Notes under the pieces: model-generated
The model's input: only the letters and a program-made list of their open reading frames with translations
Databases searched by the model: none
What the model was told of the DNA's origin: nothing
Source: a virus
Virus record (IMG/VR): IMGVR_UViG_3300037840_000126
Location: 1 to 34,867 of that record
Strand: one strand, 5' to 3'
DNA length: 34,867 bases
Part shown: positions 11,934-34,201 of the stretch, in pieces
Position numbering within the stretch: position 1 is the first letter of the stretch
Layout: the number at the start of each line of letters is the position of its first letter
Position numbers and translations under genes: made by a program

Positions 11934-11949
11934 CACTAATCCTTTAGTG
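11934..11949 (-). promoter_or_regulatory. Shine-Dalgarno-in-loop hairpin, small terminase
   Basis: Minus strand CACTAA-AGGA-TTAGTG, perfect 6-bp arms, loop exactly AGGA, two bases before ATG 11931. Confidence 0.65.
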
Positions 11950-11964
11950 TTTAATGAGTTAATC

Positions 11965-12183
11965 TTACTTATCTTTACGTTTTAACACAAACATTATTCC
12001 AAACAAAACAACAGCTTCAAATCCGTTAGCAGAGGAACATAGCTGGCTAAACGCATTAGCATCAAAGTCCCTAGTCTCAATTATCTCAATTACCTCATAG
12101 ACAAACTGAATAAAGCAAAGTATCGCAGGTATAGAGATAGCTATATTTGGGTTGTCGTTAAAAAACTCGCGTAACTTGCTCAT
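11965..12183 (-). CDS. Holin-like membrane protein
   Basis: 72 residues with two hydrophobic stretches, about residues 13-33 (IAISIPAILCFIQFVYEVIE) and 54-67 (FEAVVLFGIMFVL), a polar loop between and a basic tail KRKDK. Two membrane segments, this size and a four-base overlap (ATGA) with the endolysin gene are typical of class II or III holins that permeabilise the inner membrane. No specific family recognised. Confidence 0.72.
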   Translation of the reverse strand: MSKLREFFNDNPNIAISIPAILCFIQFVYEVIEIIETRDFDANAFSQLCSSANGFEAVVLFGIMFVLKRKDK

Positions 12184-12593
12184 GATATAAGCTCAAAGTG
12201 ATCAGCATCATTTAGCTGGCCGAACTGGTCTAGTTTACCCAATCCATCCCAAGCTCCACCCCACCGCACGGAATGCTCCATTTTGCCCTCATCTTTCAAT
12301 CTTTGCGCTATACCCATTACATATCCACCAAACCACAACAACAAGCGATTATCACGGTAATTTACGGGATATGGCATAACGTCCACTGCCATTGAGGGTT
12401 GATGGTTATGCTTGCCGTTGGGATAATGCAACTTCGTGTTGCCAGAGGCAAAGGCTTTCTCTTGGTCAATCTCGTTACGGTAGCCCTCAATGATTGAGCA
12501 ATCAAAGTATTTTATAACCTCGAAAAATAATACTTGCAAGTCATGATGACAAGTTGACAGCTTAGAAAATGATTCTTGGCTAAATTTTGGCAT
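12180..12593 (-). CDS. Endolysin, L-alanyl-D-glutamate (M15) peptidase
   Basis: 137 residues, the same length as T5 endolysin. The zinc-peptidase signature is complete: EGYR near 36-39, H64-x6-D71 in KHNHQPSMAVD, and D131-H132 in the C-terminal DADHFEL. These match the H/D/H zinc ligands of the VanY-like M15 peptidases that cut the L-Ala-D-Glu bond of peptidoglycan. It has no signal peptide, so it needs the holin encoded just downstream. It is the first gene of the leftward late block. The start 12593 has AGGACGTTTGT in front, with AGGA in the loop of a 5-bp hairpin. Confidence 0.92.
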   Translation of the reverse strand: MPKFSQESFSKLSTCHHDLQVLFFEVIKYFDCSIIEGYRNEIDQEKAFASGNTKLHYPNGKHNHQPSMAVDVMPYPVNYRDNRLLLWFGGYVMGIAQRLKDEGKMEHSVRWGGAWDGLGKLDQFGQLNDADHFELIS

Positions 12594-12612
12594 ACAAACG
12601 TCCTATTTTTGT
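12594..12612 (-). promoter_or_regulatory. Shine-Dalgarno-in-loop hairpin, endolysin
   Basis: Minus strand arms ACAAA and TTTGT with loop AATAGGACG, directly before ATG 12593. Five paired bases. Confidence 0.45.
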
Positions 12613-12661
12613 CTGTTAAATCAATCGTAGCATAAAAAGATGAAAAAAGTGAAATATACAG

Positions 12662-12690
12662 TTGACACACTAAGTATTAAATGTTTAAAT
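12662..12690 (+). promoter_or_regulatory. Sigma-70-type promoter, rightward
   Basis: Perfect -35 TTGACA at 12662-12667, 17-base spacer and TTAAAT (4 of 6 to TATAAT) at 12685-12690, 36 bases before the start of the 79-residue gene. The leftward late promoter should lie in the same divergent gap, but I could not identify it. Confidence 0.6.
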
Positions 12691-12726
12691 ACACCAATCA
12701 ACAAAACAACAAGAGAGGACAAAAAG

Positions 12727-12966
12727 ATGTACAAGTTAACAGCCAGGAATGAATATGGCGCAAGTGTAAGCTTTGAAGCAGATAGAGCCTATCAAGCAAT
12801 AGACAAGTTTGACGCGCAATACGCGCGAGGTGGATTTGAAATAAAACTTTACAAGCTCATCTCATATGGTCCATATTTTTTATTGGACGATGACACTGCA
12901 GAACATGAGGAAGATTATTCTGAGGGTTGGAATTTTGTAAGATTTATAAAACGCACTTTCAGATAA
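12727..12966 (+). CDS. Hypothetical protein, 79 residues
   Basis: Starts MYKLTARNEYGASVSFEADR and ends with basic RFIKRTFR; an acidic patch (DDDTAEHEEDYSEG) lies before it. The open frame extends upstream to 12640, but ATG 12727 is chosen because GAGAGGACAAAAAG precedes it and the promoter at 12662-12690 would start transcription inside the longer version. No family recognised. Confidence 0.7.
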   Translation: MYKLTARNEYGASVSFEADRAYQAIDKFDAQYARGGFEIKLYKLISYGPYFLLDDDTAEHEEDYSEGWNFVRFIKRTFR

Positions 12967-12999
12967 CAGTATTTTAAAATAAACCATAAGGATATACAC

Positions 13000-13197
13000 A
13001 TGAAGGTAAACCAAAACACGCGTGCCCCAAAAGCAGGTAAAAAGATTTATTGTCCAAGCTGTGATGCTGATTTAACCGTAAGCCACTTTTCATGGCTAGA
13101 TATGCATTGCAGGCGTTGCAGAAAGTTAATACCGAAACATGAATGGAATTTGATTTCTAGTGCAAAAAACTCTCAAGCATTCAAAGAGGTTAAGTAG
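13000..13197 (+). CDS. Small zinc-ribbon protein
   Basis: 65 residues with two CxxC pairs (CPSCDADLT and CRRC) separated by about 16 residues, a plausible zinc ribbon. Starts at ATG 13000 after AAGGATATACAC. Its last eight bases overlap the end of the convergent VRR-NUC gene. A DNA- or RNA-binding or regulatory role is only inferred from the fold. Confidence 0.72.
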   Translation: MKVNQNTRAPKAGKKIYCPSCDADLTVSHFSWLDMHCRRCRKLIPKHEWNLISSAKNSQAFKEVK

Positions 13198-13576
13198 TCA
13201 AATATTCCTCAACAATACGCTTACCTTCTACCCATCCGTAGCAAAAATGACCTTGGTAGCCAACCATTTTAACATTGTCCAGGAATGATTCTTGGGCAAT
13301 CCAACTAGGGGTTGCGCGTTCGGACTTAGAATAGACTTTATTGCGCTTCATCTCTAAAAACAAGCCATGGTAAGTCTTGGTTGGGTAGAATATAAATAAG
13401 TCGCTAACTCCAGGCTTAAGCCCTAGCATCTTTGCCATAAACCCTTGTTTCTCGGTGCGCTTGCCTTCGTTATCAATCTTGAAGAAGTAGTCTTTTAGCT
13501 TGGCATGTAAGCTCAGCCACTTCACTAATGCCAATTGCTCCGTTCTCTCGGATGGCGTAACTATCCTTGCCCTCAT
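13190..13576 (-). CDS. VRR-NUC domain nuclease
   Basis: 128 residues forming a single VRR-NUC domain of the PD-(D/E)xK nuclease superfamily: SERTEQLALVKWL at the start (E13), then GVSDLFIFYP with D59 and LFLEMKR with E75 and K77 as catalytic residues. Phage stand-alone VRR-NUC proteins are structure-selective nucleases, here probably acting in replication or recombination. The start ATG 13576 follows GGAGGAGGTGC, an unusually strong site. Last gene of the leftward replication operon; its start lies 104 bases inside the previous gene. Confidence 0.88.
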   Translation of the reverse strand: MRARIVTPSERTEQLALVKWLSLHAKLKDYFFKIDNEGKRTEKQGFMAKMLGLKPGVSDLFIFYPTKTYHGLFLEMKRNKVYSKSERATPSWIAQESFLDNVKMVGYQGHFCYGWVEGKRIVEEYLTT

Positions 13577-13664
13577 GCACCTCCTCCATTCGATACGTGT
13601 CCTTAAGTAGCTCCTTTACAGCCTTCTTGTCAAACAAATTAACAGATACTTTTTTGTTCTTCAT
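13473..13664 (-). CDS. Hypothetical protein, 63 residues, overlapping VRR-NUC gene
   Basis: Starts MKNKKVSVNLFDKKAVKELL at ATG 13664 behind AAAGGAAGAGAG. The first 30 residues look like a normal charged helical protein. The last 34 codons overlap the VRR-NUC gene in another frame, so composition there is dictated by the nuclease. Either the overlap is real or the natural product is shorter or frameshifted. Confidence 0.5.
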   Translation of the reverse strand: MKNKKVSVNLFDKKAVKELLKDTYRMEEVHEGKDSYAIRENGAIGISEVAELTCQAKRLLLQD

Positions 13665-13788
13665 CTCTCTTCCTTTCAAACAATTCCTTGGCCTCGATCA
13701 AAGGCATAGTCTTTGGTAAAAACCACTTTGCACATGCTAACCATTGCAAAAATCCTCGCGCTTGTCCAGTACTCAAAGTATTCATCAT
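13639..13788 (-). CDS. Small protein, 49 residues
   Basis: Begins MMNTLSTGQARGFLQWLACA and ends with a charged helix (ELFERKRDEEQK). ATG 13788 (or 13785) follows TTAAGGAAA. It starts five bases after the upstream stop and overlaps the next gene by 26 bases, which fits the compact operon. No family recognised. Confidence 0.55.
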   Translation of the reverse strand: MMNTLSTGQARGFLQWLACAKWFLPKTMPLIEAKELFERKRDEEQKSIC

Positions 13789-13793
13789 TTTCC

Positions 13794-14003
13794 TTAATAA
13801 CAATATGCTTTATGCCTGTTCTCTTTTAAAACCTGTTCATAGCAAGAGATAGCTTCCTCTATATTCTCAGATTCGTGTAATTCTGCAAGATCTTTGCAGT
13901 GACTTGCTAAAAAGTCCTCGTTATCACTGCCAAAAAGATCAGACAATTTTTTTACTAGAGTAAATAAGTAATTCTTCCTAGCTATCCATAGTCCGCGGTT
14001 CAT
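13794..14003 (-). CDS. Hypothetical protein, 69 residues
   Basis: Starts MNRGLWIARKNYLFTLVKKL and contains an acidic helix (LAELHESENIEEAISCYEQV), which resembles a single TPR-like pair of helices. The start is four bases after the replication-initiator stop and has only a weak GAAG, so coupling is likely. A helicase-loader or partner of the initiator would be expected here, but there is no motif to support that. Confidence 0.6.
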   Translation of the reverse strand: MNRGLWIARKNYLFTLVKKLSDLFGSDNEDFLASHCKDLAELHESENIEEAISCYEQVLKENRHKAYCY

Positions 14004-14007: not shown

Positions 14008-15006
14008 TCAAACCGAAGAAGCCGATATTTGATTAAGAATTACCTTATGGTATTGCAGAGCCGTAAGACCCAGTTTTTTGCGCTCCTCCTCATGCTTTAT
14101 CTGCAACTCGGTAAGATCGGGGCGGCTCGATACAATAGAGTGAATTTTTTTAAAGCTATGAGCATCGTCAATCTCTCTCCTTTTTTCTTCCTGTGCTTTT
14201 AGCTCCCGCTCTCTGATTTTAAGCTCATTAGCTTCCCTTTCCTGTTTAGACGGAAACCTCACGGCGCTAGAAGGGTTAAGCGCACCTATATCTTGCTTGA
14301 AGTACCGGAACTCTACACCCGCCCACCCATTGCCCACAGCCTTTTTAAAACAGTCAACGGGGGAAAGGCCAGCGTCTTTAAGCTTTGCAAGATTTTGATT
14401 GGCTTGCTCCCAGGCTGTTGCCGTCATCTTAGCCTTTTTGCCTTTGCGAACCTCTAACCAATCTTTCAAGACTGATTCAGGGATATTCCAGGGATTGTTT
14501 TCAAGCATTTCAGAAAGAGAAAAAGACCCAATCACAGCACCCTTGGGTGCTAAGGTTTTAGATTCTTCTTTTAGATTCTCTCTTTTAGATTCAGTGTCCC
14601 GTTTTTGGGACTGGTCACCCGTTCCGTTTTTGGGACTGGTACCCGTGCCGTTTTTGGTACTGGTAAAAGTTTGACCAGTCCCGTTTTTGGGACTGGTTGT
14701 GGATAAGTTTAAAGATAATTCGGAGACAGACTGATCAACATAAGTTAGTTTCATTACGGGAATCTGACCGGAGCGCCCTTTAAAATAGCCCATGTATTCG
14801 AGCAGATTTTTATCTATTACAGATTGCCGTACTTTTATAATGGTTTTTCTTTCAAGCCCCGTGTCAGCACAAAGGCGTTTTATGGAAGGCCAACACTCAT
14901 GAGACTCTCCTGCGCGATTGGCACAAGAAAGGAGGAAAAGCTTCTCACTAGATGAAACGATTTCTTTTGATAGGCGCCAAGTTGCTAGCGTTGCTTCAAC
15001 ACTCAT
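14008..15006 (-). CDS. Replication initiator, lambda O-like, containing the origin
   Basis: 332 residues. The N-terminal part (about residues 5-105) is a winged helix of the helix_turn_helix_36/phage O type: LSKEIVSSSEKLFLLSCANR, ECWPSIKRLCADTGLERKTI, then a wing. Residues about 105-140 are a low-complexity linker with repeated S/T-PKNGTG units, encoded by the iterons described separately. A conserved 'VLKDWLEVRKGKKAKMTATAW' helical region and a charged coiled C-terminus follow. The protein should bind the iterons and recruit host helicase, as lambda O does. Start 15006 follows AGGAGTATTACT. It overlaps the upstream gene by four bases. Confidence 0.85.
   Translation of the reverse strand: MSVEATLATWRLSKEIVSSSEKLFLLSCANRAGESHECWPSIKRLCADTGLERKTIIKVRQSVIDKNLLEYMGYFKGRSGQIPVMKLTYVDQSVSELSLNLSTTSPKNGTGQTFTSTKNGTGTSPKNGTGDQSQKRDTESKRENLKEESKTLAPKGAVIGSFSLSEMLENNPWNIPESVLKDWLEVRKGKKAKMTATAWEQANQNLAKLKDAGLSPVDCFKKAVGNGWAGVEFRYFKQDIGALNPSSAVRFPSKQEREANELKIRERELKAQEEKRREIDDAHSFKKIHSIVSSRPDLTELQIKHEEERKKLGLTALQYHKVILNQISASSV
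14556..14697 (-). other. Putative replication origin inside the initiator gene
   Basis: Four 17-bp iterons CCGTTTTTGGGACTGGT (plus-strand reading) lie at 14599, 14624, 14648 (one mismatch, GGTAC) and 14681, spaced 25, 24 and 33 bases. The last has an inverted arm in front, so ACCAGTCCC and GGGACTGGT can pair (14674-14697). On the 3' side in coding direction come three TTTTAGATTC direct repeats at 14556, 14569 and 14583, an AT-rich stretch fit for unwinding. Lambda ori has the same layout: four iterons then an AT-rich region inside gene O. A GC-rich dyad, GCACCC-TT-GGGTGC, flanks it at 14537-14550. Confidence 0.78.
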
Positions 15007-15796: not shown

Positions 15797-15811
15797 CTTT
15801 TCAGGAAAAAG
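15797..15811 (+). promoter_or_regulatory. Shine-Dalgarno-in-loop hairpin, 171-residue gene
   Basis: CTTTT-CAGGA-AAAAG, two bases before ATG 15814. Five paired bases, loop carries AGGA. Confidence 0.42.
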
Positions 15812-15813: not shown

Positions 15814-16329
15814 ATGAACAAAAATAGTTTACAGGATAGCTATATCCAAAATCAACACAAATCATCATGGATTGATGATCCTTTCGGCTTAGGTTTTACA
15901 GGAGTTGAGCCAGTGTCGCACGATGAGCAGTTATCTAACTATGCCAATGAACTTGTAGGAAGTTATGCAAAGTATGATGGGGAAAGTTATGCGCTAGACC
16001 TAGATTCACTTTCCGACCCACTACAACTTGAGCTTGCACGACTTTATATCGAGACTATTGATCGCGAGATAGAATGGGCATGCTATGGTGAGGATGAGAC
16101 TTTAAACAGTAATTTCTTAACAGCTTTGCTTGCTATGCTTAAGAATAGTACGCCTAAGACTCGTACCCATTTCGCACAAGTCACTACACAAAACGTTCTC
16201 ATTTACTATAAAAAAATCTTACAAGAAATCCTTGATACGGCCTGTGCTGAGTATTATTGCAATGATATGCATGATTCATTTTGTATGGCGAATCAGGATT
16301 TAGAAGTAGGAGTAAATATAAATGGCTGA
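15814..16329 (+). CDS. Hypothetical acidic protein, 171 residues
   Basis: Starts MNKNSLQDSYIQNQHKSSWI. Acidic and mainly helical, with Cys residues clustered near the end (ACAEYYCND, FCMANQ). No family recognised. ATG 15814 follows CAGGAAAAAGTC. It overlaps the next gene by eight bases. Placed second in the rightward early block, so it could be a host-takeover or anti-defence protein; this is inference from position only. Confidence 0.7.
   Translation: MNKNSLQDSYIQNQHKSSWIDDPFGLGFTGVEPVSHDEQLSNYANELVGSYAKYDGESYALDLDSLSDPLQLELARLYIETIDREIEWACYGEDETLNSNFLTALLAMLKNSTPKTRTHFAQVTTQNVLIYYKKILQEILDTACAEYYCNDMHDSFCMANQDLEVGVNING
16298..16317 (+). promoter_or_regulatory. Shine-Dalgarno-in-loop hairpin, 67-residue gene
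   Basis: Arms ATTTA and TAAAT with loop GAAGTAGGAG, four bases before ATG 16322. Confidence 0.4.
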
Positions 16330-19918: not shown

Positions 19919-20361
19919 AAAACATCTTGGGCGCTTTTTCTGCCCTCGATAATAGATTTATTTAATAGTTCAATCTTTAATCTGCTTAGCTTTAAGTCCA
20001 GTTCTTCATGCAATACTCGATCATCATTCGCATGTATTTCAGCATGACAATTGGCACAAAGCATAATGCATTTATCAATTTCACTTCTTAGCATTTCCCA
20101 ATTTCTTACTTTCTTAAATCCAGGCCTTGATTCAAATATTCCAAAGTTTTTTTTTGATGGATCAATATGATGGAAATTGAAAGCCCGCCAGCATTTATCA
20201 TATCCGCATTTTTGACACTCGCCACCACCATACTTAACTGCTTTTAATTTTATATTCTCTAAATACCTCCTACTATAAAAATATTCGCACTTTTTGCATT
20301 TCCACTTTGTACCTGATAATCTGTGAATTGAAACCCCGTGACGATTGCAAATTAACTGCAT
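19906..20361 (-). CDS. Free-standing HNH endonuclease
   Basis: 151 residues. An N-terminal zinc ribbon (C5 to C22-x2-C25) is followed by the HNH core: C49-x2-C52, FHHIDP with H64-H65, and LCANCHAEIH with C102, C105, H106 and H110. This is the fold of phage free-standing homing endonucleases. It is the only minus-strand gene in the rightward early block and lies beside gene remnants, which suggests insertion as a mobile intron-less homing gene. ATG 20361 follows GGCAGGAAAT; a 6-bp hairpin holds the Shine-Dalgarno in its loop. Confidence 0.88.
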   Translation of the reverse strand: MQLICNRHGVSIHRLSGTKWKCKKCEYFYSRRYLENIKLKAVKYGGGECQKCGYDKCWRAFNFHHIDPSKKNFGIFESRPGFKKVRNWEMLRSEIDKCIMLCANCHAEIHANDDRVLHEELDLKLSRLKIELLNKSIIEGRKSAQDVFYSL

Positions 20362-20379
20362 ATTTCCTGCCTCAAATAT
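20360..20379 (-). promoter_or_regulatory. Shine-Dalgarno-in-loop hairpin, HNH gene
   Basis: Minus strand ATATTT-GAGGCAGG-AAATAT, perfect 6-bp arms, touching ATG 20361. Confidence 0.5.
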
Positions 20380-20681: not shown

Positions 20682-20704
20682 TAATAGGAAGAGAGGAAAT
20701 ATTA
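20682..20704 (+). promoter_or_regulatory. Shine-Dalgarno-in-loop hairpin, exported protein 1
   Basis: Arms TAATA and TATTA with a 13-base loop that includes GAGAGGAAA, one base before ATG 20706. Confidence 0.38.
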
Positions 20705-20705: not shown

Positions 20706-21125
20706 ATGAAGTGTATATCAAAAATTGCTGGCATCGCTTTATTGTCAACAACAATGAGTTCGCATGCTGGGTTCTGGGCAAACACGGCACATAGCCGTGC
20801 TAACTGCAAGGGGTTCAATGAGTCCATCACTTGGAACTGGAACGAATATCACTGGTGGGAAGTAAAATCAATTCACTTTAAACAATCTGGGAATGGTCCT
20901 GATACTCACGAAGTAATGTCTTGGATGGCTTATACCTGGCGTGCGGCGGCGTATGATTTCTGGCGTGACCCTGCGGGACCTATGGCTAATCAATACCACG
21001 TACAAGGGTATCATTACTATATGGCTTATAATGGCTCTTACGTTTATGACGTTTACACAGATGCAGACGGTTGCAATCTGTATTACGACGGCTGGTGGGA
21101 TAAAAACAAGGCCAATGGAGAATAA
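20706..21125 (+). CDS. Exported Trp/Tyr-rich protein, 139 residues, unknown
   Basis: An N-terminal signal peptide (MKCISKIAGIALLSTTMSSHA) has a likely cut before GFWANTAH. The mature part of about 118 residues is remarkably rich in Trp, Tyr and His (WNWNEYHWWEVKSIHF, YTWRAAAYDFW, GYHYYMAYN) with two cysteines (C34 and C123) that could form a disulfide in the periplasm. ATG 20706 follows GAGAGGAAATATTAC. No family recognised with certainty. It leads a three-gene cassette with an exported and a membrane protein. Superinfection exclusion or host-fitness cargo is possible by inference. Confidence 0.8.
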   Translation: MKCISKIAGIALLSTTMSSHAGFWANTAHSRANCKGFNESITWNWNEYHWWEVKSIHFKQSGNGPDTHEVMSWMAYTWRAAAYDFWRDPAGPMANQYHVQGYHYYMAYNGSYVYDVYTDADGCNLYYDGWWDKNKANGE

Positions 21126-21127: not shown

Positions 21128-21967
21128 ATGAATAAAACAACAATATTATTATTACTCGCATCATCAAGTGTTGCTTTTGCAAATACTATGACGAGTCAAC
21201 CCTATGATCCAAAGCCTATGGTTGAAGGGAATAGGAGGGTGGATGAAATTATCGAATGGCATAAGAGCCATCCTGGTGAAATGCCACCATTAACTGAACA
21301 AGAGAAGGAACATTTTTTCACAAGTAAAGGAATACCAGTGCCAGGCTCTGGAGCAAAAATTGTAAATAGCACACAAGGTTTTGGCATGACTAAAAATCAG
21401 GCATCTGTTGTCGCGAGCTTTAATAGTGCACAAAGAACCAAAGGTTATTTCGAGGCTAATAATAAGCGAGCTAAGTTTCTTTTTTCAATGCCTGAAATGG
21501 CCGAGAAGGAATTTAACGAAAGACAGGGAGCTGCATTTAATGCGCATGATACCCATTTATATGAATCAAAGACTAATCTGGTGATGGATTATGGTTACAG
21601 AGGTGTTCCAGAAAATTTATCTAAAAAGGTTATTGGGTTTGCGCCTGAAAGTACTTTTGCAAATGGTGGCTGGAGAGGTGCTGTTGAATTCTTTACTCCA
21701 TTATTTGATTCGGTGTGCGCTTATCATGAAATTAATATCGGGCTAACGCAATCATCAGCTTCAATCCCTAAGGAAGTAGTGACCCATACAGTTAATAATA
21801 AGCTTACAACAATGAACGTTATAGGTTCTAAAGAAAGTGGGTTTGTTTACGAGGTTGAATGGTGGGATAAAACCTACAGGCGCACACTTGAATGTGCATC
21901 TAAAGCCTATACCGAAGAAATGCGCGCTCAAGTTATTGAGCTTGCAAGGCAGATAGACAAAGGATGA
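21128..21967 (+). CDS. Exported protein, 279 residues, unknown
   Basis: Signal peptide MNKTTILLLLASSSVAFA with likely cleavage before NTMTSQ. The mature protein is soluble-looking, with 'HKSHPGEMPPLTEQEKEHFF' near the start and an alpha/beta C-terminal region holding its only two cysteines (SVCAYHE and LECASKAY). Begins two bases after the previous stop, behind GGAGAATAAAT, so it is co-expressed with the 139-residue exported protein. No family recognised. Confidence 0.8.
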   Translation: MNKTTILLLLASSSVAFANTMTSQPYDPKPMVEGNRRVDEIIEWHKSHPGEMPPLTEQEKEHFFTSKGIPVPGSGAKIVNSTQGFGMTKNQASVVASFNSAQRTKGYFEANNKRAKFLFSMPEMAEKEFNERQGAAFNAHDTHLYESKTNLVMDYGYRGVPENLSKKVIGFAPESTFANGGWRGAVEFFTPLFDSVCAYHEINIGLTQSSASIPKEVVTHTVNNKLTTMNVIGSKESGFVYEVEWWDKTYRRTLECASKAYTEEMRAQVIELARQIDKG

Positions 21968-22144: not shown

Positions 22145-22173
22145 TGAGTTGTTGTTATTTTTGCAACAACTCA
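22145..22173. terminator. Bidirectional hairpin between convergent genes
   Basis: TGAGTTGTTG and CAACAACTCA, perfect 10-bp arms with a 9-base loop. It lies at the meeting of the rightward cassette and the leftward acyltransferase, whose stop codon is inside the stem. A T-tract is lacking, but the position fits a shared terminator. Confidence 0.6.
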
Positions 22174-22728
22174 CACTGTCTTTAAAAATTCTTCCTCAAG
22201 CTTAAGTAAATCTTTTTGTCTTTCCTTTATTCTCTTAGCTGGAATGCCCGCATATATTCCCCAGGGATTAGTGCTATGGTTTACATACGTTAGTGCCCCA
22301 ATAGCGCAACCTTCCCCAATAGTGACACCAGGCATAATTATCGAGTTCGCACCTACTAGCACATGTTTTTTAAGTATGACCGCACCATGAGTAGTTTCTT
22401 TGAAGTTTTCAGGAATTAATGGGTTAGATAGTGCAGCGCCAGAATAGTCATCGCTTGAAGTGAAAATGCTTGTGCTATAAGAAATGCCTACAAAATCGTC
22501 TATTATTATAGGTGCTAGAGATGCGCTTATGAGGCAAAAGGGGGAAACGTGGGAATAATTACCAATTACAAGAGGGCCTTTAAGTAAGCAGTAATCATCT
22601 ATCCTTGAATTATCCCCAATAGATATTTCTTGAATGTTATAAAAGCTAGTTATGGTGCTAATTTTTACATTTTTACCAAGGTGTTTGAAAGGTAAATCAT
22701 CAAGTTGTGCTTGCGTTAAAAAAGCCAT
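22171..22728 (-). CDS. Hexapeptide-repeat acyltransferase (LbH family)
   Basis: 185 residues with left-handed beta-helix turns: IGDNSRIDDYCLL, VIGNYSHVSPFCLI, then after a loop VLVGANSIIMPGVTIGEG-CAIGA and the typical NPWGIYAGIPAKRIKER ending. A catalytic-type His is H114 (TTHGAV). The family transfers acetyl groups from acetyl-CoA to sugars. In phages such genes often modify O-antigen and block re-infection. The gene stands alone on the minus strand, behind its own start (AAGGGATAAA), separated from the phage operons. Confidence 0.88.
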   Translation of the reverse strand: MAFLTQAQLDDLPFKHLGKNVKISTITSFYNIQEISIGDNSRIDDYCLLKGPLVIGNYSHVSPFCLISASLAPIIIDDFVGISYSTSIFTSSDDYSGAALSNPLIPENFKETTHGAVILKKHVLVGANSIIMPGVTIGEGCAIGALTYVNHSTNPWGIYAGIPAKRIKERQKDLLKLEEEFLKTV

Positions 22729-22867: not shown

Positions 22868-23008
22868 ATGAGATTCTATGACGTTGACGGCATGGAAATT
22901 GACGTTCAAGATATTAAATTTTTCATAGATGAAAAAGAATTAACTGAAACGCAGGAAGCTATAGCGGAGATGTTAGATCTTTATGAAGAAAGTATACCAG
23001 TGGGTTAA
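22868..23008 (+). CDS. Small acidic protein, 46 residues
   Basis: Starts MRFYDVDGMEIDVQDIKFFI and is strongly acidic. ATG 22868 follows AAGGCGTATATT. It overlaps the WGR gene by 26 bases and is probably its operon partner. An acidic partner for a WGR domain is noteworthy because that domain binds nucleic acid; DNA mimicry is speculation. Confidence 0.55.
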   Translation: MRFYDVDGMEIDVQDIKFFIDEKELTETQEAIAEMLDLYEESIPVG

Positions 23009-23213
23009 TAGAGAAAAAGCCCGTTACTACACAATAACAATGCAAAAAGATGGAACTAATGACATTGTACTTAATTACGATTGGGGTAGCTGCAACACAA
23101 ATCGCGGTGGTAAGAAGGATATTTATGTTTCCACCGAAGAAGAAGCAGAAACCTACATTGTTAAAATGATAAAAAGGCGCAAAGCTCGTGGATATGAACT
23201 TACAGCGCCATAA
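22983..23213 (+). CDS. Stand-alone WGR-domain protein
   Basis: 76 residues. 'RYYTITMQKDG', then 'VLNYDWGSCNTNRGGKKDIY', then 'STEEEAETYIVKMIKRRKARGYE' reproduces a WGR domain from end to end, although the central motif is WGS (residues 34-36) and not WGR. WGR domains bind nucleic acid in PARPs and in MolR-like proteins; short stand-alone copies occur on phages and plasmids. ATG 22983 lies inside the previous gene, after GGAGATGTTAGATCTTT. It is convergent with the last late gene, three bases away. Confidence 0.72.
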   Translation: MKKVYQWVNREKARYYTITMQKDGTNDIVLNYDWGSCNTNRGGKKDIYVSTEEEAETYIVKMIKRRKARGYELTAP

Positions 23214-23216: not shown

Positions 23217-24029
23217 TTATGGAATAACTAAATAACCAATCAGCAAAGTTCCATTCAATGATGATCCATTATTATTCGTGATTGTTATGGTAGATGTTCC
23301 ACTTCCTGCGGTTGCCATTAGTTCAACAGTATTCCTTGTATTTGTGCCACCCATAAGACTCAGTATTATTACTGAACTTGTAGTTATCACAGTATTTGTC
23401 CAAGTTATTGCGTAAGCAGAACCTGTTCCCGTAGTTAATGAGGAAGTAGTAATAACACCTGCTGTACCGCTTGCAGTAACTGCATTAGCAGCTTCGGTGC
23501 CATTCGCCTTGGTGTATATATAGGCTGTACCTGTAGTATCTGGGAAAGTAACTGTTTGTGTAGCATTCGTATTAGAAAAGGCAAAAAAAGTTCTGTGCTG
23601 TGGCATGCCCGCCATTAATGTTCCATTGAAAATAGAGAAAGGAGTTGTTGTATTAGCGCTAAACATGTTAACAGTTCCTGTTCCTTTTGAAGCTATAAGA
23701 AGGTCTACATTAGTATCCGAACCTTCAGAGGCTATTTGTGGGGCAGTTCCAGTAATTGAGTTTTGCATACCTATATAATTAACAGCGCTTGCCACAGAAA
23801 AAAAACGTAAAATATAATTCCCTGATGCATCGCCAATTCCTGTAGGAGCTTGCAGAAGTCCTGTTAATCCTGTCATGGAAGTGATATTGGAATTAATACC
23901 CGAAGTGGCAAAAAGACTTGTTAACTGCGTAAAACTTTCTTTGTACGTTACTCCTGATTGCACTACCGGAAAGATGTCCGATAGTGCCGGTGTTGCGATA
24001 GCAGGTAAATTACTTATTCTAATACCCAT
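23217..24029 (-). CDS. Tail fibre/tip protein, 270 residues
   Basis: Starts MGIRISNLPAIATPALSDIF and continues [20 protein letters not shown], nearly the same as the start of the 847-residue fibre, so both probably attach to the same virion site. The rest is Thr/Ser/Gly-rich beta structure typical of trimeric fibres. It is the last gene of the late block. Its Shine-Dalgarno lies in the loop of an 8-bp hairpin, the best example in the genome. It may be a second receptor-binding protein or fibre cap. Confidence 0.72.
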   Translation of the reverse strand: MGIRISNLPAIATPALSDIFPVVQSGVTYKESFTQLTSLFATSGINSNITSMTGLTGLLQAPTGIGDASGNYILRFFSVASAVNYIGMQNSITGTAPQIASEGSDTNVDLLIASKGTGTVNMFSANTTTPFSIFNGTLMAGMPQHRTFFAFSNTNATQTVTFPDTTGTAYIYTKANGTEAANAVTASGTAGVITTSSLTTGTGSAYAITWTNTVITTSSVIILSLMGGTNTRNTVELMATAGSGTSTITITNNNGSSLNGTLLIGYLVIP

Positions 24030-24048
24030 GATTAAATCCTTTTAATCA
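24029..24048 (-). promoter_or_regulatory. Shine-Dalgarno-in-loop hairpin, 270-residue fibre
   Basis: Minus strand GATTAAA-AGGA-TTTAATC, perfect 7-bp arms plus an eighth pair that uses the A of the start codon. The 4-base loop is exactly AGGA and the stem ends at the ATG. Confidence 0.7.
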
Positions 24049-26990: not shown

Positions 26991-27007
26991 ATTAATTCCT
27001 ATTTAAT
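26991..27007 (-). promoter_or_regulatory. Shine-Dalgarno-in-loop hairpin, 45-residue gene
   Basis: Minus strand ATTAA-ATAGGAA-TTAAT, one base before ATG 26989. It overlaps the foot of the 13-bp hairpin at 27005-27041, so the two folds compete by three bases. Confidence 0.42.
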
Positions 27008-27046: not shown

Positions 27047-28627
27047 TTAAACAGTAGCAGTTAAGAGCTGATATACGACAGTAATGGTTATTGAAGTACC
27101 AGTTCCTGCAGTGTAATCACCAGTAGCATTGGAGAAATAAAGACCAAGTCCGGAAAGTCCTGTTATGGCCGCTGTTGCGATACCAAACAAGTTTCTAACC
27201 TGACTAGTTGCCGCTGTTATATCTCCTGCTACTAAGCCAGACGCTGTTGCAATAGTACCCGCGCCATGCTGTCCATTCGTACCACCAGAGCTGTACTGGA
27301 TAATGGGAGCGGTACCTGTAGCATAAGGCGTATGTCCAGTACTTGCGGTATATACAGATGCCTGCATAACTAATATCATTTGAGATGCAGCAGGGTTTGC
27401 AACAATCTGCAAAGGCGTGTCGTAAGCGGTTACCATTTGTGCGGTATTGAAGGTAACACTTACTTGATGCAAGGCACCTAATTGTGTTATTGCAGTAGAT
27501 ACACTGGAAACGGTTACGCCAGAGTCCACAACTGCACCACTAGTGCCAGATAATTGTACAATGTTTCCGGATACAAGTGAGCCGCCTGCAGCAAGTACCT
27601 TACCAGTCGCTGCCCCAACATCAGGGAAGGTGAGAACGGTAGACTGTGCTTGCGTTGTCTGGTTACTTAAAGTAGTTCCAAAGTTACCACTACCATTAAC
27701 TGCTGCTTGCATAGAAATAAATCCAGACGATGCAGTTGTTGGGAATGCTTCAAATAGCCCTACAAATCCACCTGTGGAAAGCCCACTAGTAACAGCTCCT
27801 GCATCTACTTGAAGCGCACCTGATGTTAGATGCTGCGTACCTGCAGATTTACTGATAATGAAGTTTGAAGTGGCACTTCCACCATCCGGAATTGAAACCA
27901 CTTGAGCTTGTCCGATAGAAGAAGCGTTGCTTATAGTAGTATTAAAGTTCCCACCAGCATTAGATACTGCCGCAAGGATAAGTTCACCTTCGGTTGCAGT
28001 GCCTGGGAAAGAAGCGACAGTGCCGGCATGACCAGAAGAACCAGCAACTAAGTTTCCAGTTGTCGCAACAATATTCCCCGTTGCGGCTGTTAAACCAAAA
28101 GCGAGCGTTGCAGTTGTAGTTTGAGCTTTAATATCTCCAGAAGTGTCAGAGAATACAGGAATGGCATTAGCAACAGATGCGGGACCTGAGAAACTAACCG
28201 CTCCAACGGATGCTTGTCCATTATAGGTAAAAGTATCAGTACCTATTACCTGTGGCAAAGGCTCAACCAAGGTATAGAAATCCCCTGCATTAACGCTTCC
28301 CGCACCTATTGCAATATTTTCTCCAGCATGCAATTGCTCTATGTTTTGTTGATCGAATGCTCGTTGTAGAACTACTGTTGAACTTATGCTCTCAACCACA
28401 TAAACGCCGTTCTGAGCGCCTGCACTTTGAGCAGCTAATAATACGCGGTCGCCTACATTTAGAACGACAGAATCAATTGTTAGAGAAGATGCGGCTATTG
28501 TGAGCGTTGCCCCTACCCCATTATTGTTAGGGCCATTGTAATAGGTTCCTGCAACGTTAGAAGTCGATACAACTCTCGCTGGCGTTAACCAGGGAGAAAA
28601 TACAAATTGGCTTACACTTGTAGTCAT
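27047..28627 (-). CDS. Tail fibre protein, 526 residues
   Basis: Starts MTTSVSQFVFSPWLTPARVV. Residues 25-135 ('SVVLNVGDRVLLAAQSAGAQ', 'NGVYVVE', 'GDFYTLVEPLPQVIGTDTF') form the small beta domain common near the start of phage fibres ('GDRVLLxxQ...NGVYxV'). A Ser/Thr/Gly/Ala-rich shaft follows, with two similar units beginning near 'GNFNTTISNASS' and 'GNFGTTLSNQTT'. The C-terminal 130 residues are a distinct beta-rich tip. ATG 28627 has AAGGAATTTAAA in front with the Shine-Dalgarno in a hairpin loop. Confidence 0.78.
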   Translation of the reverse strand: MTTSVSQFVFSPWLTPARVVSTSNVAGTYYNGPNNNGVGATLTIAASSLTIDSVVLNVGDRVLLAAQSAGAQNGVYVVESISSTVVLQRAFDQQNIEQLHAGENIAIGAGSVNAGDFYTLVEPLPQVIGTDTFTYNGQASVGAVSFSGPASVANAIPVFSDTSGDIKAQTTTATLAFGLTAATGNIVATTGNLVAGSSGHAGTVASFPGTATEGELILAAVSNAGGNFNTTISNASSIGQAQVVSIPDGGSATSNFIISKSAGTQHLTSGALQVDAGAVTSGLSTGGFVGLFEAFPTTASSGFISMQAAVNGSGNFGTTLSNQTTQAQSTVLTFPDVGAATGKVLAAGGSLVSGNIVQLSGTSGAVVDSGVTVSSVSTAITQLGALHQVSVTFNTAQMVTAYDTPLQIVANPAASQMILVMQASVYTASTGHTPYATGTAPIIQYSSGGTNGQHGAGTIATASGLVAGDITAATSQVRNLFGIATAAITGLSGLGLYFSNATGDYTAGTGTSITITVVYQLLTATV

Positions 28628-28628: not shown

Positions 28629-28644
28629 TTAAATTCCTTTTTAA
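28629..28644 (-). promoter_or_regulatory. Shine-Dalgarno-in-loop hairpin, 526-residue fibre
   Basis: Minus strand TTAAA-AAGGAA-TTTAA, one base before ATG 28627. Confidence 0.45.
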
Positions 28645-28979: not shown

Positions 28980-30596
28980 CTACAATTTTATGAATACATT
29001 AAAAAATGATGTTGGCTGCATATTATTATGCGCTCCACTTCCACCTGTTGAGCCTGTGGTTGCGCCAAATGAAAGACTAGAACCTGGATCTGATGCTTCA
29101 ACGGCAGATCCATTAGTTTGTACAAAAGCACTTCCAGATAATGGCGGATGTGTATGCGCTGGCATTTCGGGAACAGTTAAAACATGAGTTTCTTCACCTA
29201 CATCTTCTCCTAATACACGCGCTGTTAATCCAGCACCTGAGCCAGCACCAGCTATTGCACGACCCAAAGATAAAGGCAAAGTTAATGTTTTACCGGCTAA
29301 AAAGTCAGCAGTCGCACTTGCTCCCAAACCAGTAGATACAGGCGCATAAACATTGCCTGATGGATTAGAAATGCCATCCCATAATGTTTTATAAAGCTGG
29401 TAAGTATAGTCGCCTGCCGTTGTAGCTCCTGAGCCTGTGTTGCCAATGGACGTATCATTCATGGCCAGCCAACCAGGAGGAGGAGATGAAGTTAAGCTAA
29501 CACGAATATCTCCTGTGCGTGGCGTTTGATCTACAGAATCGATTTGATCGTAAGTCTGAAAATCAGTAGTTGGATCAATATTTCCTAAGTAAAGCGCAGG
29601 CTTTGTGAAAAGCACATCGATAGAAGTTCCAAGTGGCATTCCTAACTGAATATAAAGGGCGTCATCATCCGTCTGCTTGCCGCCTACACCTAATGTGCCA
29701 GCTGAGACATCAGGAACCGTGAAAGATAAAACATATGCTGTCCAGGTAGTGGTTAATGCAATCGTTCCCTGTTGAGTTTGGACAGGCGCTGTTGCCCCTG
29801 TACCTGAACCATAATATTGCAAAGTGTAAATAGTAATTGTCTCTGGAGTAGCTGCAACTTTAGCCCAAATTCTAAAGGTTACTATCTGGTTAGAAAGGTT
29901 CTTAACTTTCTGACAAATCGGGAATTGAAAGTTTTTAAAAGTCTCGCCTGCTGGAGTTCCAGTGCACACATATTCTATACTGTAAGCTGGGGTAACATCT
30001 CCTTCTAATGCCATAGGAGAATCTGACAATGCAAATACAGGAAATGTTATTGAATCACTTGAAAGCCCAGTATTATTCTTATTGAATCTTATGTCAGGAC
30101 CTATGGTACCGTAAGCCGTGGTTATAGGATTTATTAATGCAGGTGTAAACCCTTTATGATTGGATGGGCAAATCACATAATTAGTTATATTAGATGGAGA
30201 CGAAATAGTAGCGCTATGATTTATAAAAACATTATTGGCAATAAGGTTATCTAGCGGAAAAATCTCAGTTATAGTTCCGCCACCCCCGCCACCCTGACCT
30301 GTAAACCCATCAACTTCCCAAAGAAGCGCGCCATTTGCATCATAGGCTTGTACAAAATAGGTTTCATCTGGGAATGCTGGGTCAAACTCCCAGTAAATTG
30401 GAGCATGCGTGCCATTTAAATCAAAAAATGTTGGATTAGGCCATGCTTCCTCGCCAGCTGGATCAACAAAAGTAGGCTTGTCTTCGATCTTATTTAATGA
30501 TCTTTTAGTAACAAGATAGCCGCCACCTGCAACGGTTCCGACAAGATTTATTAATACCCATACTGGCTCTGGAGCTAAACTATATGATGCCGTCAT
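28980..30596 (-). CDS. Tail fibre with C-terminal tail-collar domain, 538 residues
   Basis: The N-terminal 120 residues hold 'PAGEEAWPNPTFFDLNGTHA' and a 'VQAYDANGALLWEVDGF' strand pair ending in a GQGGGGGG hinge, probably the virion-binding part. A beta-sandwich-like middle (CBM-like, residues about 125-350) follows. The C-terminus is a phage tail-collar domain: 'GDIRVSLTSSPPPGWLAMND', 'HVLTVPEMPAHTHPP', then 'GAHNNMQPTSFFNVFIKL'. Tail-collar domains end many short fibres. ATG 30596 is four bases after a hairpin with GGGAA in its loop. Confidence 0.85.
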   Translation of the reverse strand: MTASYSLAPEPVWVLINLVGTVAGGGYLVTKRSLNKIEDKPTFVDPAGEEAWPNPTFFDLNGTHAPIYWEFDPAFPDETYFVQAYDANGALLWEVDGFTGQGGGGGGTITEIFPLDNLIANNVFINHSATISSPSNITNYVICPSNHKGFTPALINPITTAYGTIGPDIRFNKNNTGLSSDSITFPVFALSDSPMALEGDVTPAYSIEYVCTGTPAGETFKNFQFPICQKVKNLSNQIVTFRIWAKVAATPETITIYTLQYYGSGTGATAPVQTQQGTIALTTTWTAYVLSFTVPDVSAGTLGVGGKQTDDDALYIQLGMPLGTSIDVLFTKPALYLGNIDPTTDFQTYDQIDSVDQTPRTGDIRVSLTSSPPPGWLAMNDTSIGNTGSGATTAGDYTYQLYKTLWDGISNPSGNVYAPVSTGLGASATADFLAGKTLTLPLSLGRAIAGAGSGAGLTARVLGEDVGEETHVLTVPEMPAHTHPPLSGSAFVQTNGSAVEASDPGSSLSFGATTGSTGGSGAHNNMQPTSFFNVFIKL

Positions 30597-30599: not shown

Positions 30600-30614
30600 T
30601 CACATTCCCTGTGA
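30600..30614 (-). promoter_or_regulatory. Shine-Dalgarno-in-loop hairpin, tail-collar fibre
   Basis: Minus strand TCACA-GGGAA-TGTGA, three bases before ATG 30596. Its stem is identical to that at 34187-34201 while the loop differs by one base. Confidence 0.5.
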
Positions 30615-30787: not shown

Positions 30788-32401
30788 TTATTGGAATAAA
30801 TGCGATAATGCATTACCCCCGATAGCTAATGCTGTCGCCCCACCTGCCAATTTGCCAGCTTTCTTTAGATTCTCTACATTTTTCATTTTTTTAGTAAGAG
30901 AATTAATGCTTTCTTTTACCTCTGGCGTGAAATAGCTTTCATATCCTTTGCTTTTAATGGAATCTAGCTTTTTAAGTAAAGCATCCGCCGTCAACTTATT
31001 GCCGCCTATTGCATCAAATATAATTCTGTCTTTTGAGCTTTGAGGCAAATCTTGCATTATTTTGTTAATACTTCCTATTTCTTCTATCCCTGCTTTATTA
31101 ATGACGTTAGTAGGGGTGTTAAAGATATTATGTAGTCCCTTAATATCTGTTTTACCACCCTTGATAATATCCAATAGTTTTTTATTTGATAGGAAAGGAG
31201 CAACATTTTTTTCAAATAATTCAGAAGCTTTTTTATAATGACCAGAAAGAGGTTGATTTGATGTTAAATCCCTCTTTTCAAGAAACTTATTTATATCTTC
31301 CTGCAATTGCGCTTTCGCAGATTTTACTTTAGATATTTTCAATAAATCTTCTTGTGTTTTAGCCGGATTGGATTCAAGTGTTCTACCTATAAACCCAAGT
31401 TCGGATTGTAATTTATGTGCATTTTCAAATGTAGGGCTTTCCTTGAATACATCAAATACTTCTCCCACATTTAAATCATTTATCTTTCCTAACGTTTCTT
31501 GCTCTCTTGCATGCAAAGGCCCCCTAGTAGGGACGATATCTTTATGACCTACCCCATAAATAGGCTCTTTGCCTGCAGATTTTAATGCATGATTATAAAA
31601 TATCCCGGCCTCTTCTTGACGCATTGAATGTGCATTTTTAATATCTTGCGCTAACTGTCTAGAATTCTTTGTTATATTGTTACTTCCACTGCTTAAATAA
31701 TTCTCTAGATCTTTTGCGTGAGCTTCTGGATTAAATTTGGAAGCAGTATTTTTTAAGAATTCATTATTTTGAACAGAATTCTTGATGCCGCTATAACCCT
31801 TAGAAGCAACTTCACCTAAAGCACCACCTGCAGCACCCAACCCCAATCCTAGCAATTGGTTATCTGGAGCATATGCGCCACCTAACAATGCATTGCCAGC
31901 AATTCTAGATGTTACTGGAGCTTTACTTAGAATATTGCTTGCATGCTTAATACCTTCTGCAATCATAGGTATTTTCATTGCAGATTTTGCCGTATGCATA
32001 AAAGCTGGTGTCTTCCCTAATAGCTTAAATAAAGCTCCTGGTGAGAAAAATGATGCTATCTCCCCTGCTGTTTCACTAGGGCCATGCGGAACGATATCTA
32101 TCATAGGACTTTTGGGCACATTAGCACCCAGTGCATTAACTCCACTAGCTCCTAAGTTATATAATCCAGGAGCTATATTTGCAATGCCTTGGCCAAAGCC
32201 ACCCACTATATTTCGAGCACTTCTTCCCAGCGCCTCTATGGGTCTATTAATATGCTGCTCAACATCCTCACCTGCGCGCTGCAGAAAACTCTTCTTTTCC
32301 TCTTTAGGCTTTTTTCTGAAGTTAGAAGCTAGATACTGGCTATCATCATCTTTCTTCTTTAAGAAATTAGAAGCCAAATATTGGCTATCATCGTCAGTCA
32401 T
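30788..32401 (-). CDS. Ejection (injection) protein, gp16-like position, 537 residues
   Basis: The N-terminus repeats DDDSQYLASNF twice (residues 3-13 and 18-28, each followed by basic residues). Then come Gly/Ala-rich hydrophobic stretches (NIVGGFGQGIANIAPGLYNL, GLGLGAAGGALGE) and long charged helices to the end, with a final Gly/Ala segment (LAGGATALAIGGNALSHLF). This mix of amphipathic helix and membrane-active segments is like P22 gp16 and other proteins that leave the virion with the DNA and form a channel in the host envelope. No sequence family recognised; the call rests on architecture and position. It overlaps the previous gene by eight bases. Confidence 0.65.
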   Translation of the reverse strand: MTDDDSQYLASNFLKKKDDDSQYLASNFRKKPKEEKKSFLQRAGEDVEQHINRPIEALGRSARNIVGGFGQGIANIAPGLYNLGASGVNALGANVPKSPMIDIVPHGPSETAGEIASFFSPGALFKLLGKTPAFMHTAKSAMKIPMIAEGIKHASNILSKAPVTSRIAGNALLGGAYAPDNQLLGLGLGAAGGALGEVASKGYSGIKNSVQNNEFLKNTASKFNPEAHAKDLENYLSSGSNNITKNSRQLAQDIKNAHSMRQEEAGIFYNHALKSAGKEPIYGVGHKDIVPTRGPLHAREQETLGKINDLNVGEVFDVFKESPTFENAHKLQSELGFIGRTLESNPAKTQEDLLKISKVKSAKAQLQEDINKFLEKRDLTSNQPLSGHYKKASELFEKNVAPFLSNKKLLDIIKGGKTDIKGLHNIFNTPTNVINKAGIEEIGSINKIMQDLPQSSKDRIIFDAIGGNKLTADALLKKLDSIKSKGYESYFTPEVKESINSLTKKMKNVENLKKAGKLAGGATALAIGGNALSHLFQ

Positions 32402-33566
32402 AAGTAAATCCCTCCGATAGTTTCTTATCTACTAAATCGGGGGGGAAAAAATATTGCTTATTGTCCTTGTATAATCCTATGTATCCTTCTGGAATATCTA
32501 AATCTGACAGATCATATTTTTTATTTATTCCACTCTTAGGACTGGAGTTTAAGCTTGCAGCATCAACCCTTACAGATTGACGAGCCTTAAGACCTTCGCG
32601 CAATGCTTCATCTAAAAATCTAGTAGCCTCTTTTCTAGCCGAAGACGAAAGAGATGGGAAGCGACTTTCAACCATTTGCCCGGATAGCTTCATAAGTCCT
32701 TCGGTTGATGTTACACCTGGCTGACCATTAGCCAATTTTATACGTTGCTGAGCTGCTTCATACTGCAGCGCTTGTGATGCTATAAATCTACCTAAGCGCT
32801 TTTGTGACTCCGGATCTGATTTAAATGTGTCTAAAATTTGCTGAGGTGAATAATTCATTATAGTATCGCCGTAAGGAGCTAATCCTTTTTCAGCATAATC
32901 ATTTAATACTGTTAATTCCGCATCTGCCTGATTGGCCTTAATGTTTCCGGTTATGATTGGCGCAGTCGTACCACGTTTTACAATTTGGCTTGTTATGGAA
33001 TTTACGATACCGGAAGGTTGTGGCAACGGCTCCCCACTAGGTAAAGCACTCTGTCCGCTAATATAAGCACTTGCTGCCTGATTAATCTTATCTGCATCCC
33101 AGTCAGGATTCTCAAGTCCTAATTGCCTTTGCAGTTGCATTATTTCTTTCTGACCAACCCCAGCATTAGAACCACCCATATTTCGCCAATTAATTTCTGC
33201 TTCTTTAGCTTGGGGATAATATTCATTTCTTAATCGCAATTCCTCTGCTTCCAAAGGCGTCATTGTTTGGGAACGCTGAGTAATGGCGTTTCTATTTGCA
33301 ATTTCTGATTGTATATTAGGCGCGTAGTATTGGTTTTGTAATTGAGATAAAGCATTAGCTAATTGCAATTTTTCAGGCATGAATTGATTTAATATCTTCT
33401 GGCCTTCGGTTAATGCATTACGATTATTGATCTCAGATTCAATATTTGGCGCATAATATTTCTTTTTAAGAATATTAAGAGCCAGCGCATTTATACCATT
33501 TAAAGCAGTATTAACACCACCTCCAGGTTGAATATCCGCAATAACTCTTGGCAAAGGTAAGGCCAT
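32394..33566 (-). CDS. Ejection (injection) protein, 390 residues, YYAPNI repeats
   Basis: Three similar units in the first 130 residues: YYAPNIESEINNRNAL (37-52), YYAPNIQSEIANRNAI (80-95) and the weaker YYPQAKEAEINWRN (116-129). 'YYAPNI..EI..RNA' repeats recur in internal virion proteins of aquatic-bacterium phages, from memory. A Gln-rich helical part and a mixed C-terminal domain follow. By order it corresponds to P22 gp20 or gp7. ATG 33566 overlaps a hairpin holding its Shine-Dalgarno. Confidence 0.65.
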   Translation of the reverse strand: MALPLPRVIADIQPGGGVNTALNGINALALNILKKKYYAPNIESEINNRNALTEGQKILNQFMPEKLQLANALSQLQNQYYAPNIQSEIANRNAITQRSQTMTPLEAEELRLRNEYYPQAKEAEINWRNMGGSNAGVGQKEIMQLQRQLGLENPDWDADKINQAASAYISGQSALPSGEPLPQPSGIVNSITSQIVKRGTTAPIITGNIKANQADAELTVLNDYAEKGLAPYGDTIMNYSPQQILDTFKSDPESQKRLGRFIASQALQYEAAQQRIKLANGQPGVTSTEGLMKLSGQMVESRFPSLSSSARKEATRFLDEALREGLKARQSVRVDAASLNSSPKSGINKKYDLSDLDIPEGYIGLYKDNKQYFFPPDLVDKKLSEGFTYD

Positions 33567-33584
33567 TTTTAATTCCTATAAAAA
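33566..33584 (-). promoter_or_regulatory. Shine-Dalgarno-in-loop hairpin, 390-residue gene
   Basis: Minus strand TTTTTA-TAGGAAT-TAAAAA, perfect 6-bp arms; the last stem base is the A of ATG 33566. Confidence 0.52.
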
Positions 33585-34184
33585 GTTACTAAAACCTGGA
33601 ATCCCACTCAATATACTTAGACCTCCTCCTAAAAGGTTTGAAAAGTCCTGATTTCTTCCAGCCTCACTACCAAATGCGCCTTGTCCCATTTGTTGACCCA
33701 ATTGATTATATAGTTGTGTTAGTGCATTTGCCGAACCCTGGCCACCCTGAATTAAATTATTTTGGCCTTGGCCATATTGGGTATTAATTCCTAGAACATT
33801 CTCAAGCCATTTATTCATGTCTTGACTAGCTATATTTCCCGCATTTTGCTCTAGTTGTTGATAAAGAGGTGTGCTTCCAGTGAGTCCACTAGCACTTGCA
33901 GCATTTTGACCTGCTCGTAAGGATTGGGACTGCAGATAATTAGCAAAGGGACTTTCTTGGTAGTTCCCCATTAGGTTATTGATAAACTCAGTGGGATTTT
34001 TTTGACCTTGTAACCACTCTTGGTATTGTGGGATAGCGGCTACCCCAGCTTGTGTGAAAGGCTTTTGTTGATTAGCTGCTTGCTGCCCAAACTTCTTGTA
34101 TTGCTGCATAGCCTTATCATAGGGGCTCTCAGAATGGCCAAATAATCCGCCTAAAATACCGCCTATTCCACTTAAAAAAGACAT
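33576..34184 (-). CDS. Ejection-type virion protein, 202 residues
   Basis: Gly-rich start MSFLSGIGGILGGLFGHSES, then an amphipathic helical protein rich in Gln, Asn and Gly ('SPYDKAMQQYKKFGQQAANQ', 'GQGQNNLIQGGQGSANALTQ') and a Gly/Leu/Phe end (LLGGGLSILSGIPGFSNFL). Proteins with 'A.....PY..A......' and Gln-rich helices are typical of podovirus internal proteins. A GTG at 34190 is also open, but ATG 34184 is preferred (AAGGAATGTGACC). First of three ejection-type genes, as in the P22 order 7-20-16. Confidence 0.7.
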   Translation of the reverse strand: MSFLSGIGGILGGLFGHSESPYDKAMQQYKKFGQQAANQQKPFTQAGVAAIPQYQEWLQGQKNPTEFINNLMGNYQESPFANYLQSQSLRAGQNAASASGLTGSTPLYQQLEQNAGNIASQDMNKWLENVLGINTQYGQGQNNLIQGGQGSANALTQLYNQLGQQMGQGAFGSEAGRNQDFSNLLGGGLSILSGIPGFSNFL

Positions 34185-34186
34185 GG

Positions 34187-34201
34187 TCACATTCCTTGTG
34201 A
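34187..34201 (-). promoter_or_regulatory. Shine-Dalgarno-in-loop hairpin, 202-residue gene
   Basis: Minus strand TCACA-AGGAA-TGTGA, two bases before ATG 34184; same stem as at 30600-30614. Confidence 0.52.

Follow-up and report, generated by a model that had tools for sequence, protein, structure and literature searches.

The CsrA/Rsm proteins, which are translational repressors, act as a global life-style switch in many bacteria, and the change between the replicative and transmissive phases of Legionella is under CsrA control (PMC5338858, PMC6853998). In the leader of Campylobacter jejuni flaA, two hairpins present ANGGA in six-base loops (hexaloops), one of them over the ribosome-binding site (RBS), where CsrA binds and represses the gene; both hairpins are supported by compensatory changes, and the flaA mRNA itself titrates CsrA (PMC4894983). 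High-affinity hairpins are closed by a C–G pair, as in CANGGANG (PMC4894983). RsmA, in turn, binds the positive-control hairpin RsmZ-2 of Pseudomonas, CCCCG-AAGGAU-CGGGG, and was also found to bind short unstructured oligonucleotides (PMC4066749), and csrA genes are carried by 30 of 2517 phages (PMC7366521). Here, short hairpins of a similar kind are described in the virus record IMGVR_UViG_3300037840_000126 of IMG/VR, whose whole length of 34,867 bases is referred to as the window. These hairpins, which precede virion and packaging genes as part of their leaders, are probably binding hairpins of the CsrA/RsmA type.

The window and its relatives belong to one family of uncultured, P22-like viruses of bacteria. 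A related large terminase is present at 71 loci in IMG/VR, with best-segment identities of 55–84%, and 20 complete or near-complete relatives were used for comparison (21 genomes once the window is added). The register of pairing was assessed in 883 non-redundant Shine–Dalgarno (SD) regions of the relatives by scoring the complementarity of each base to the left of GG with each base to the right, and the Watson–Crick excess falls mainly along the symmetric diagonal around GG. Stems that close at the third base on each side of GG, leaving a 6-base loop with GG at its center, number 49 against 7.3 expected for stems of at least 4 pairs, and 28 against 2.1 for at least 5. When this register is split by loop, A-N-GGA accounts for 43 hairpins against 3.9 expected, whereas [CGT]-N-GGA yields 2 against 1.8, and loops with a base other than A after GG (AGG[CGT]) yield 4 against 1.6. 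When each protein family contributes a single member, ANGGA remains in excess (11.3 against 1.44 expected), and [CGT]NGGA does not rise above chance (0.2 against 1.7).

The same rule appears when sites are counted over the 21 genomes. A hexaloop with a stem of at least 4 pairs is found at 79 of the 640 ANGGA sites near starts (12.3%), as against 0.5–0.9% for the control loops [CGT]NGGA (4/434), ANGG[CGT] (2/370), ANAGA, and ANGAA at starts, 0.46% for antisense ANGGA sites (7/1506), and 1.3% for those inside genes. Only 1 of 161 ANGGA sites has such a hairpin in 12 control phages, which include P22, Vibrio phage VvAW1, and several with a related terminase, portal, or capsid. In a set of 102 distinct hexaloop hairpins covering 34 families, there is free variation at loop bases 2 and 6. 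Their A and GGA were imposed by the search, so that support for the loop rule comes from setting ANGGA against [CGT]NGGA and the remaining control loops. The excess is limited to A-N-GGA-N in a 6-base, sometimes 7-base, loop that is closed symmetrically around GG.

Across the phage family, the hairpins are present in 123 of 453 virion and packaging genes (27%) versus 59 of 1629 other genes (4%), and in nearly none of the replication genes. This concentration on virion genes speaks against a phage-wide RBS format, one of three explanations offered in the original prediction, which was made from the window alone. Conservation per gene amounts to 28/35 for the capsid, 14/20 for the tail fibre, and 14/26 for the ejection gene and, with stems of at least 4 pairs, to 32/59 for the small terminase and 20/59 for the pooled fibre family. 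The hairpins of this class in the window are as follows (GGA positions are relative to the start; dG, predicted folding free energy).

4099–4118, minus strand: hairpin 2 of the leader of the capsid gene (major capsid protein, MCP, 2876–4087), CCATTTA-ATGGAT-TAAGTGG, with one G–U pair and GGA at −22.
4145–4165, minus strand: hairpin 1 of the capsid leader, GGGTTTT-AAGGATT-AAAACTC, GGA at −69.
5048–5064, minus strand: leader hairpin of the scaffold-position gene (4171–4986), GTGGG-AAGGATT-CCCAC, GGA at −71.
7338–7350, minus strand: portal hairpin, CCC-AATGGAT-GGG, directly upstream of the likely start at 7331.
11934–11949, minus strand: small terminase (TerS) hairpin, CACTA-AAGGAT-TAGTG, over the SD; z −4.2.
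24029–24048, minus strand: hairpin of gene 23217–24029, TGATTAA-AAGGAT-TTAATCA, over the SD; dG −4.6, z −2.7.
28629–28644, minus strand: hairpin of the fibre-like gene 27047–28627, TTAAA-AAGGAA-TTTAA, over the SD.
30600–30614, minus strand: hairpin of the tail fibre gene 28980–30596, TCAC-AGGGAAT-GTGA, over the SD.
34187–34201, minus strand: hairpin of the ejection-protein-like gene 33576–34184, TCAC-AAGGAAT-GTGA, over the SD.

Comparative evidence for pairing comes from the capsid leader, where relatives have CCATTTA-ANGGAY-TAAATGG roughly 22 bases ahead of the start, with the stem variants CCAATTA/TAATTGG, CCATTAA/TTAATGG, CCATTTG/CAAATGG, and CCATTA/TAATGG. In 17 distinct relative sequences of hairpin 2, 97.5% of the pair cells are paired and both sides have changed in 5 of the 7 pairs; the covariation score is 0.414, compared with 0.120 when shuffled (0/500) and at most 0.061 when slid, and the consensus fold of 31 capsid leaders contains hairpin 2 as its sole structure. 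Here, the GGA in the loop is distinct from the SD and lies some 10 bases upstream of it, and the 3′ arm overlaps the SD (ATGGAG; GTGGAG in the window). Of 34 capsid leaders, 22 contain at least two such hairpins; the two of the window are spaced by 47 nt. The window leader folds far better than its shuffles (z −5.5), and the predicted local fold at the site of hairpin 1 competes with that hairpin. At the end of the scaffold-position gene (about 4170–4185 of the window) and in relatives, CACATGGAAGTGA is conserved, coding for GTWK-stop in the relatives; a further ANGGA hexaloop, CAC-ATGGAA-GTG, might fold there as the third ahead of the capsid gene and, as the stretch is coding, the protein may be what is constrained.

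The TerS stem is found in relatives as CATTA/TAATG, CAGTA/TACTG, and TACTA/TAGTA, the 3′ arm of the 24029 hairpin terminates on the A of the ATG, and the scaffold leader hairpin has a dG of −8.3 alone and −9.8 within the folded stretch. The portal represents the weakest case, as its fold alone is no better than shuffles (z −0.7); several relatives have CCC-AAGGAA-GGG or CCC-(A)ANGGAN-GGG at this gene.

The original prediction had listed 13 hairpins with the SD in the loop directly before start codons, all of which are present in the window at exactly the positions given, that at 26991 belonging to a small open reading frame (ORF) starting at about 26989; the hairpins of the capsid, scaffold, and portal genes were not among them. 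The proposed excess over shuffled upstream regions is also borne out. Among the 43 window genes with a recognisable SD, stems of at least 5 pairs with an SD loop of at most 6 bases number 7, against 1.02 ± 1.00 in shuffled regions and 1.02 ± 0.96 after exchange of left flanks between genes; the count rises to 12 (2.8–3.2 expected) for loops of up to 10 bases and to 13 (4.4–4.7 expected) for loops of up to 13, with all P values at the test floor of 0.0025. The 13 hairpins are, nevertheless, heterogeneous. Those at 11934, 24029, 28629, 30600, and 34187 have an A-N-GGA loop of 6–7 bases, and their loop classes recur in relatives; that at 2869 has ANGGA in an asymmetric loop; and the remaining seven have non-ANGGA loops, with a predicted dG of 0 in six of them. 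Under the loose criterion of the original prediction, non-ANGGA SDs show no excess in relatives (25.3 observed against 28.9 expected), in contrast to ANGGA SDs (27.2 against 17.5), and the seven are therefore best read as chance. The ANGGA hairpins recur at genes of the relatives, with covarying capsid stems, whereas a general display of SDs in loops is not borne out there. The claim that stem sequences differ while pairing is kept agrees with stems that vary freely between genes and covary between relatives, and the distant genes at 30600 and 34187 do have one stem in common (TCAC/GTGA). The eight hairpins outside the symmetric A-N-GGA class are listed below.

2869–2883, minus strand: TATCT-TAAGG-AGATA, ANGGA in an asymmetric loop; doubtful.
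26991–27007, minus strand: ATTAA-ATAGGAA-TTAAT, TAGGA loop, dG 0; probably chance in the window, with ANGGA hairpins at the counterpart of this gene in several relatives.
33566–33584, minus strand: TTTTTA-TAGGAAT-TAAAAA, non-ANGGA; probably chance.
12594–12612, minus strand: ACAAA-AATAGGACG-TTTGT, non-ANGGA; probably chance.
20360–20379, minus strand: ATATTT-GAGGCAGG-AAATAT, non-ANGGA; probably chance.
15797–15811, plus strand: CTTTT-CAGGA-AAAAG, non-ANGGA; probably chance.
16298–16317, plus strand: ATTTA-GAAGTAGGAG-TAAAT, non-ANGGA; probably chance.
20682–20704, plus strand: TAATA-GGAAGAGAGGAAA-TATTA, non-ANGGA; probably chance.

A hairpin could simply keep the SD single-stranded in its loop for ribosome access, as the original prediction had also suggested, and the looped GGA is indeed the SD in most cases, with the 13 window hairpins exceeding chance. 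However, SD–anti-SD pairing requires neither the A two bases before GGA nor a symmetric loop, so this idea does not account for an excess restricted to ANGGA in the symmetric 6–7-base register, with none at other good SDs; moreover, the capsid loop lies upstream of the SD, which is overlapped by the stem. Such a generic display is largely refuted by the scarcity of hairpins at [CGT]NGGA SDs and is considered improbable. The third option of the original prediction, a translation regulator, is the one that the data support, with the requirement for that A and for a symmetric loop of 6–7 bases. Phages often encode their own translational repressors, and the regulator might be an RNA-binding protein of the phage itself that recognises the same loop without being related to CsrA, acting as a self-contained late-gene repressor in the manner of the MS2 coat protein at its operator; the phages lack csrA and encode several small conserved proteins without a known domain, which would suit this possibility. 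Nevertheless, the A-N-GGA hexaloop rule is exactly that of CsrA/RsmA and no candidate RNA-binding protein stood out, so that a phage-encoded ligand of this kind seems unlikely, though somewhat less so than the display of the SD.

Two further explanations dispense with RNA recognition. As inverted repeats, one of them common to the distant genes 30600 and 34187, the elements could be DNA operators of a dimeric transcription factor that overlap the start sites by accident, but the stems differ freely and covary, and the asymmetric center ANGGA is kept on the coding strand before starts, which makes operators very improbable. The least probable explanation, to which hardly any weight is given, is that AT-rich upstream regions yield short inverted repeats that were selected by eye. 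It would fit the non-ANGGA hairpins, six of the seven having a dG of 0 in a class not enriched in relatives, whereas, for the ANGGA class, chance is refuted by the permutation tests in the window, the replication in relatives deduplicated by protein family, and the matched loop controls.

The CsrA/RsmA reading can be weighed on the features of known sites. An A(N)GGA core, its position in the (hexa)loop of a short hairpin, and its location at or near the SD are all found, and two or more sites per leader, the arrangement that allows dimer bridging in strongly regulated targets, occur in the capsid gene, on which alone this feature was assessed. The C–G closing pair of the highest-affinity hairpins is not typical here; it would be a mark of top affinity rather than a requirement, since RsmA bound unstructured oligonucleotides (PMC4066749). 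Several points weigh against the reading. The closing pairs of the 102 hairpins are A–U in 68, U–A in 28, C–G in 4, and G–C in 2, and the predicted stems are weak, at 0 to −5 kcal/mol for most. No csrA gene scored above the cut-off in the window or in 48 related records, a matching CsrA in the host cell is assumed, and CsrA binding and ribosome blocking at the loops are deduced from sequence and analogy. Furthermore, gene calling relied on a simple script and will have misplaced some starts. A CsrA-like fragment in one relative was rejected as sub-threshold (13.7 bits), and comparison of the small window proteins with Pfam gave no CsrA-like domain.

Because the phages have no recognisable csrA, the CsrA of the host is the simplest and likely ligand. 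In the proposed mechanism, a short stem would display the A-N-GGA-N loop, of six or sometimes seven bases, on or beside the SD, and host CsrA would bind these loops and block ribosome binding, so that synthesis of the capsid, portal, small terminase, scaffold, ejection, and fibre proteins could be held down until CsrA is low. Alternatively, release may come about when late mRNA outnumbers CsrA, and the capsid mRNA, usually with two hairpins, might itself titrate CsrA as the flaA mRNA of C. jejuni does. Opinion is evenly balanced on the broader proposal that these csrA-less phages have wired their virion and packaging genes to host CsrA, with particle production awaiting a given CsrA state or titration by late mRNA.

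As regards the host, a prophage search through 84,980 species returned only two contigs of metagenome-assembled genomes (MAGs), one of them about as long as the whole phage, and both were dismissed as probable binning contaminants. The window genes 20706–21125 and 21128–21967 (139 and 279 amino acids, both with signal-peptide-like starts) resemble two neighbouring genes carried by Legionella lytica plasmids, with identities of 40% and 31–35%, these being the only matches among 72,556 plasmid records, and homologues of this two-gene module are present in two complete relatives (G009 and G036). The pooled accessory genes of the relatives have mixed proteobacterial matches (Rhizobium, Variovorax, and others) with no Legionella signal and, since they do not point there, Legionella as the host is only a hint. 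No annotated phage is close to the window, and no near-identical DNA was found among annotated phages and plasmids, hence no CRISPR-spacer-like match to a host either.

The window ends in an exact terminal repeat of 127 bases (1–127 and 34741–34867), which probably marks a complete circular genome, with a circular unit of 34,740 bases; terminal overlaps of 127, 123, or 98 bases occur in several relatives, and the recurrence of the 127-base length suggests an assembler overlap rather than a biological repeat. PHROG matches on the minus strand include a P22-type portal (phrog_156), the major head protein (phrog_283), terminase subunits, a DNA-ejection protein, tail fibres, and an O-like replication initiator at 14008–15006, and those on the plus strand a Sak4-like single-strand DNA annealing protein and a single-stranded DNA (ssDNA)-binding protein. 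Other window genes encode a possible Tad2-like (Thoeris anti-defence 2) domain at 7411–7668 (sub-threshold, 22 bits against a cut-off of 25), an NrdR-like zinc ribbon by itself, with the rest of NrdR absent (9755–9949), an acyltransferase resembling galactoside O-acetyltransferases (22171–22728), with a homologue in the relative G033, and a small phage ORF with a WGR domain above the Pfam cut-off (22983–23213). A sialate O-acetylesterase-like protein is encoded by the relative G004.

If control by host CsrA is true, the timing of phage assembly would depend on a physiological regulator of the host, and the Csr life-style switch would be a checkpoint of phage development. Late phage transcripts would also be a CsrA sponge that may disturb the Csr network of the host, and CsrA could offer hosts a means of restricting these phages. 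In any phage collection, the comparison of ANGGA with [CGT]NGGA hexaloops at start sites would provide a test for Csr-wired phages. Searches of the open-access full-text literature turned up phage-borne csrA genes, but no set of phage virion genes forming a CsrA regulon.

Repression of phage translation at start sites is familiar from the MS2 coat-protein operator and the T4 RegA sites, but there the phage itself encodes the ligand, and the RNA motif is a different one. The csrA-bearing phages share with the present family a link between phage and Csr system; however, they carry the protein, whereas the window family carries target sites and no recognisable csrA. Vibrio phage VvAW1, the best tblastn match of the window capsid protein, encodes its own CsrA (gp26; 62 bits; 28277–28489 of locus L120) together with a P22-type coat protein, and yet lacks ANGGA hairpins at its starts (0 of 14 sites). 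RsmX/Y/Z and CsrB/C are non-coding sponges with many hairpins, in contrast to the phage mRNA leaders with their AU-rich stems; no Rfam match of any kind was obtained in the window at gathering scores, and hairpins outside starts are few in the 21 genomes. The RsmZ-2 hairpin has the same AAGGAU hexaloop as the window sites 11934 and 24029, on a 5-bp stem. The closest likeness is to flaA, since the capsid leader also combines two ANGGA hairpins, compensatory changes, and an abundant structural protein, and it looks like a second instance of the flaA design. However, flaA is a host gene under FliW control, whereas here the hairpins belong to a set of phage virion genes, whose titration of CsrA would be by analogy with flaA.

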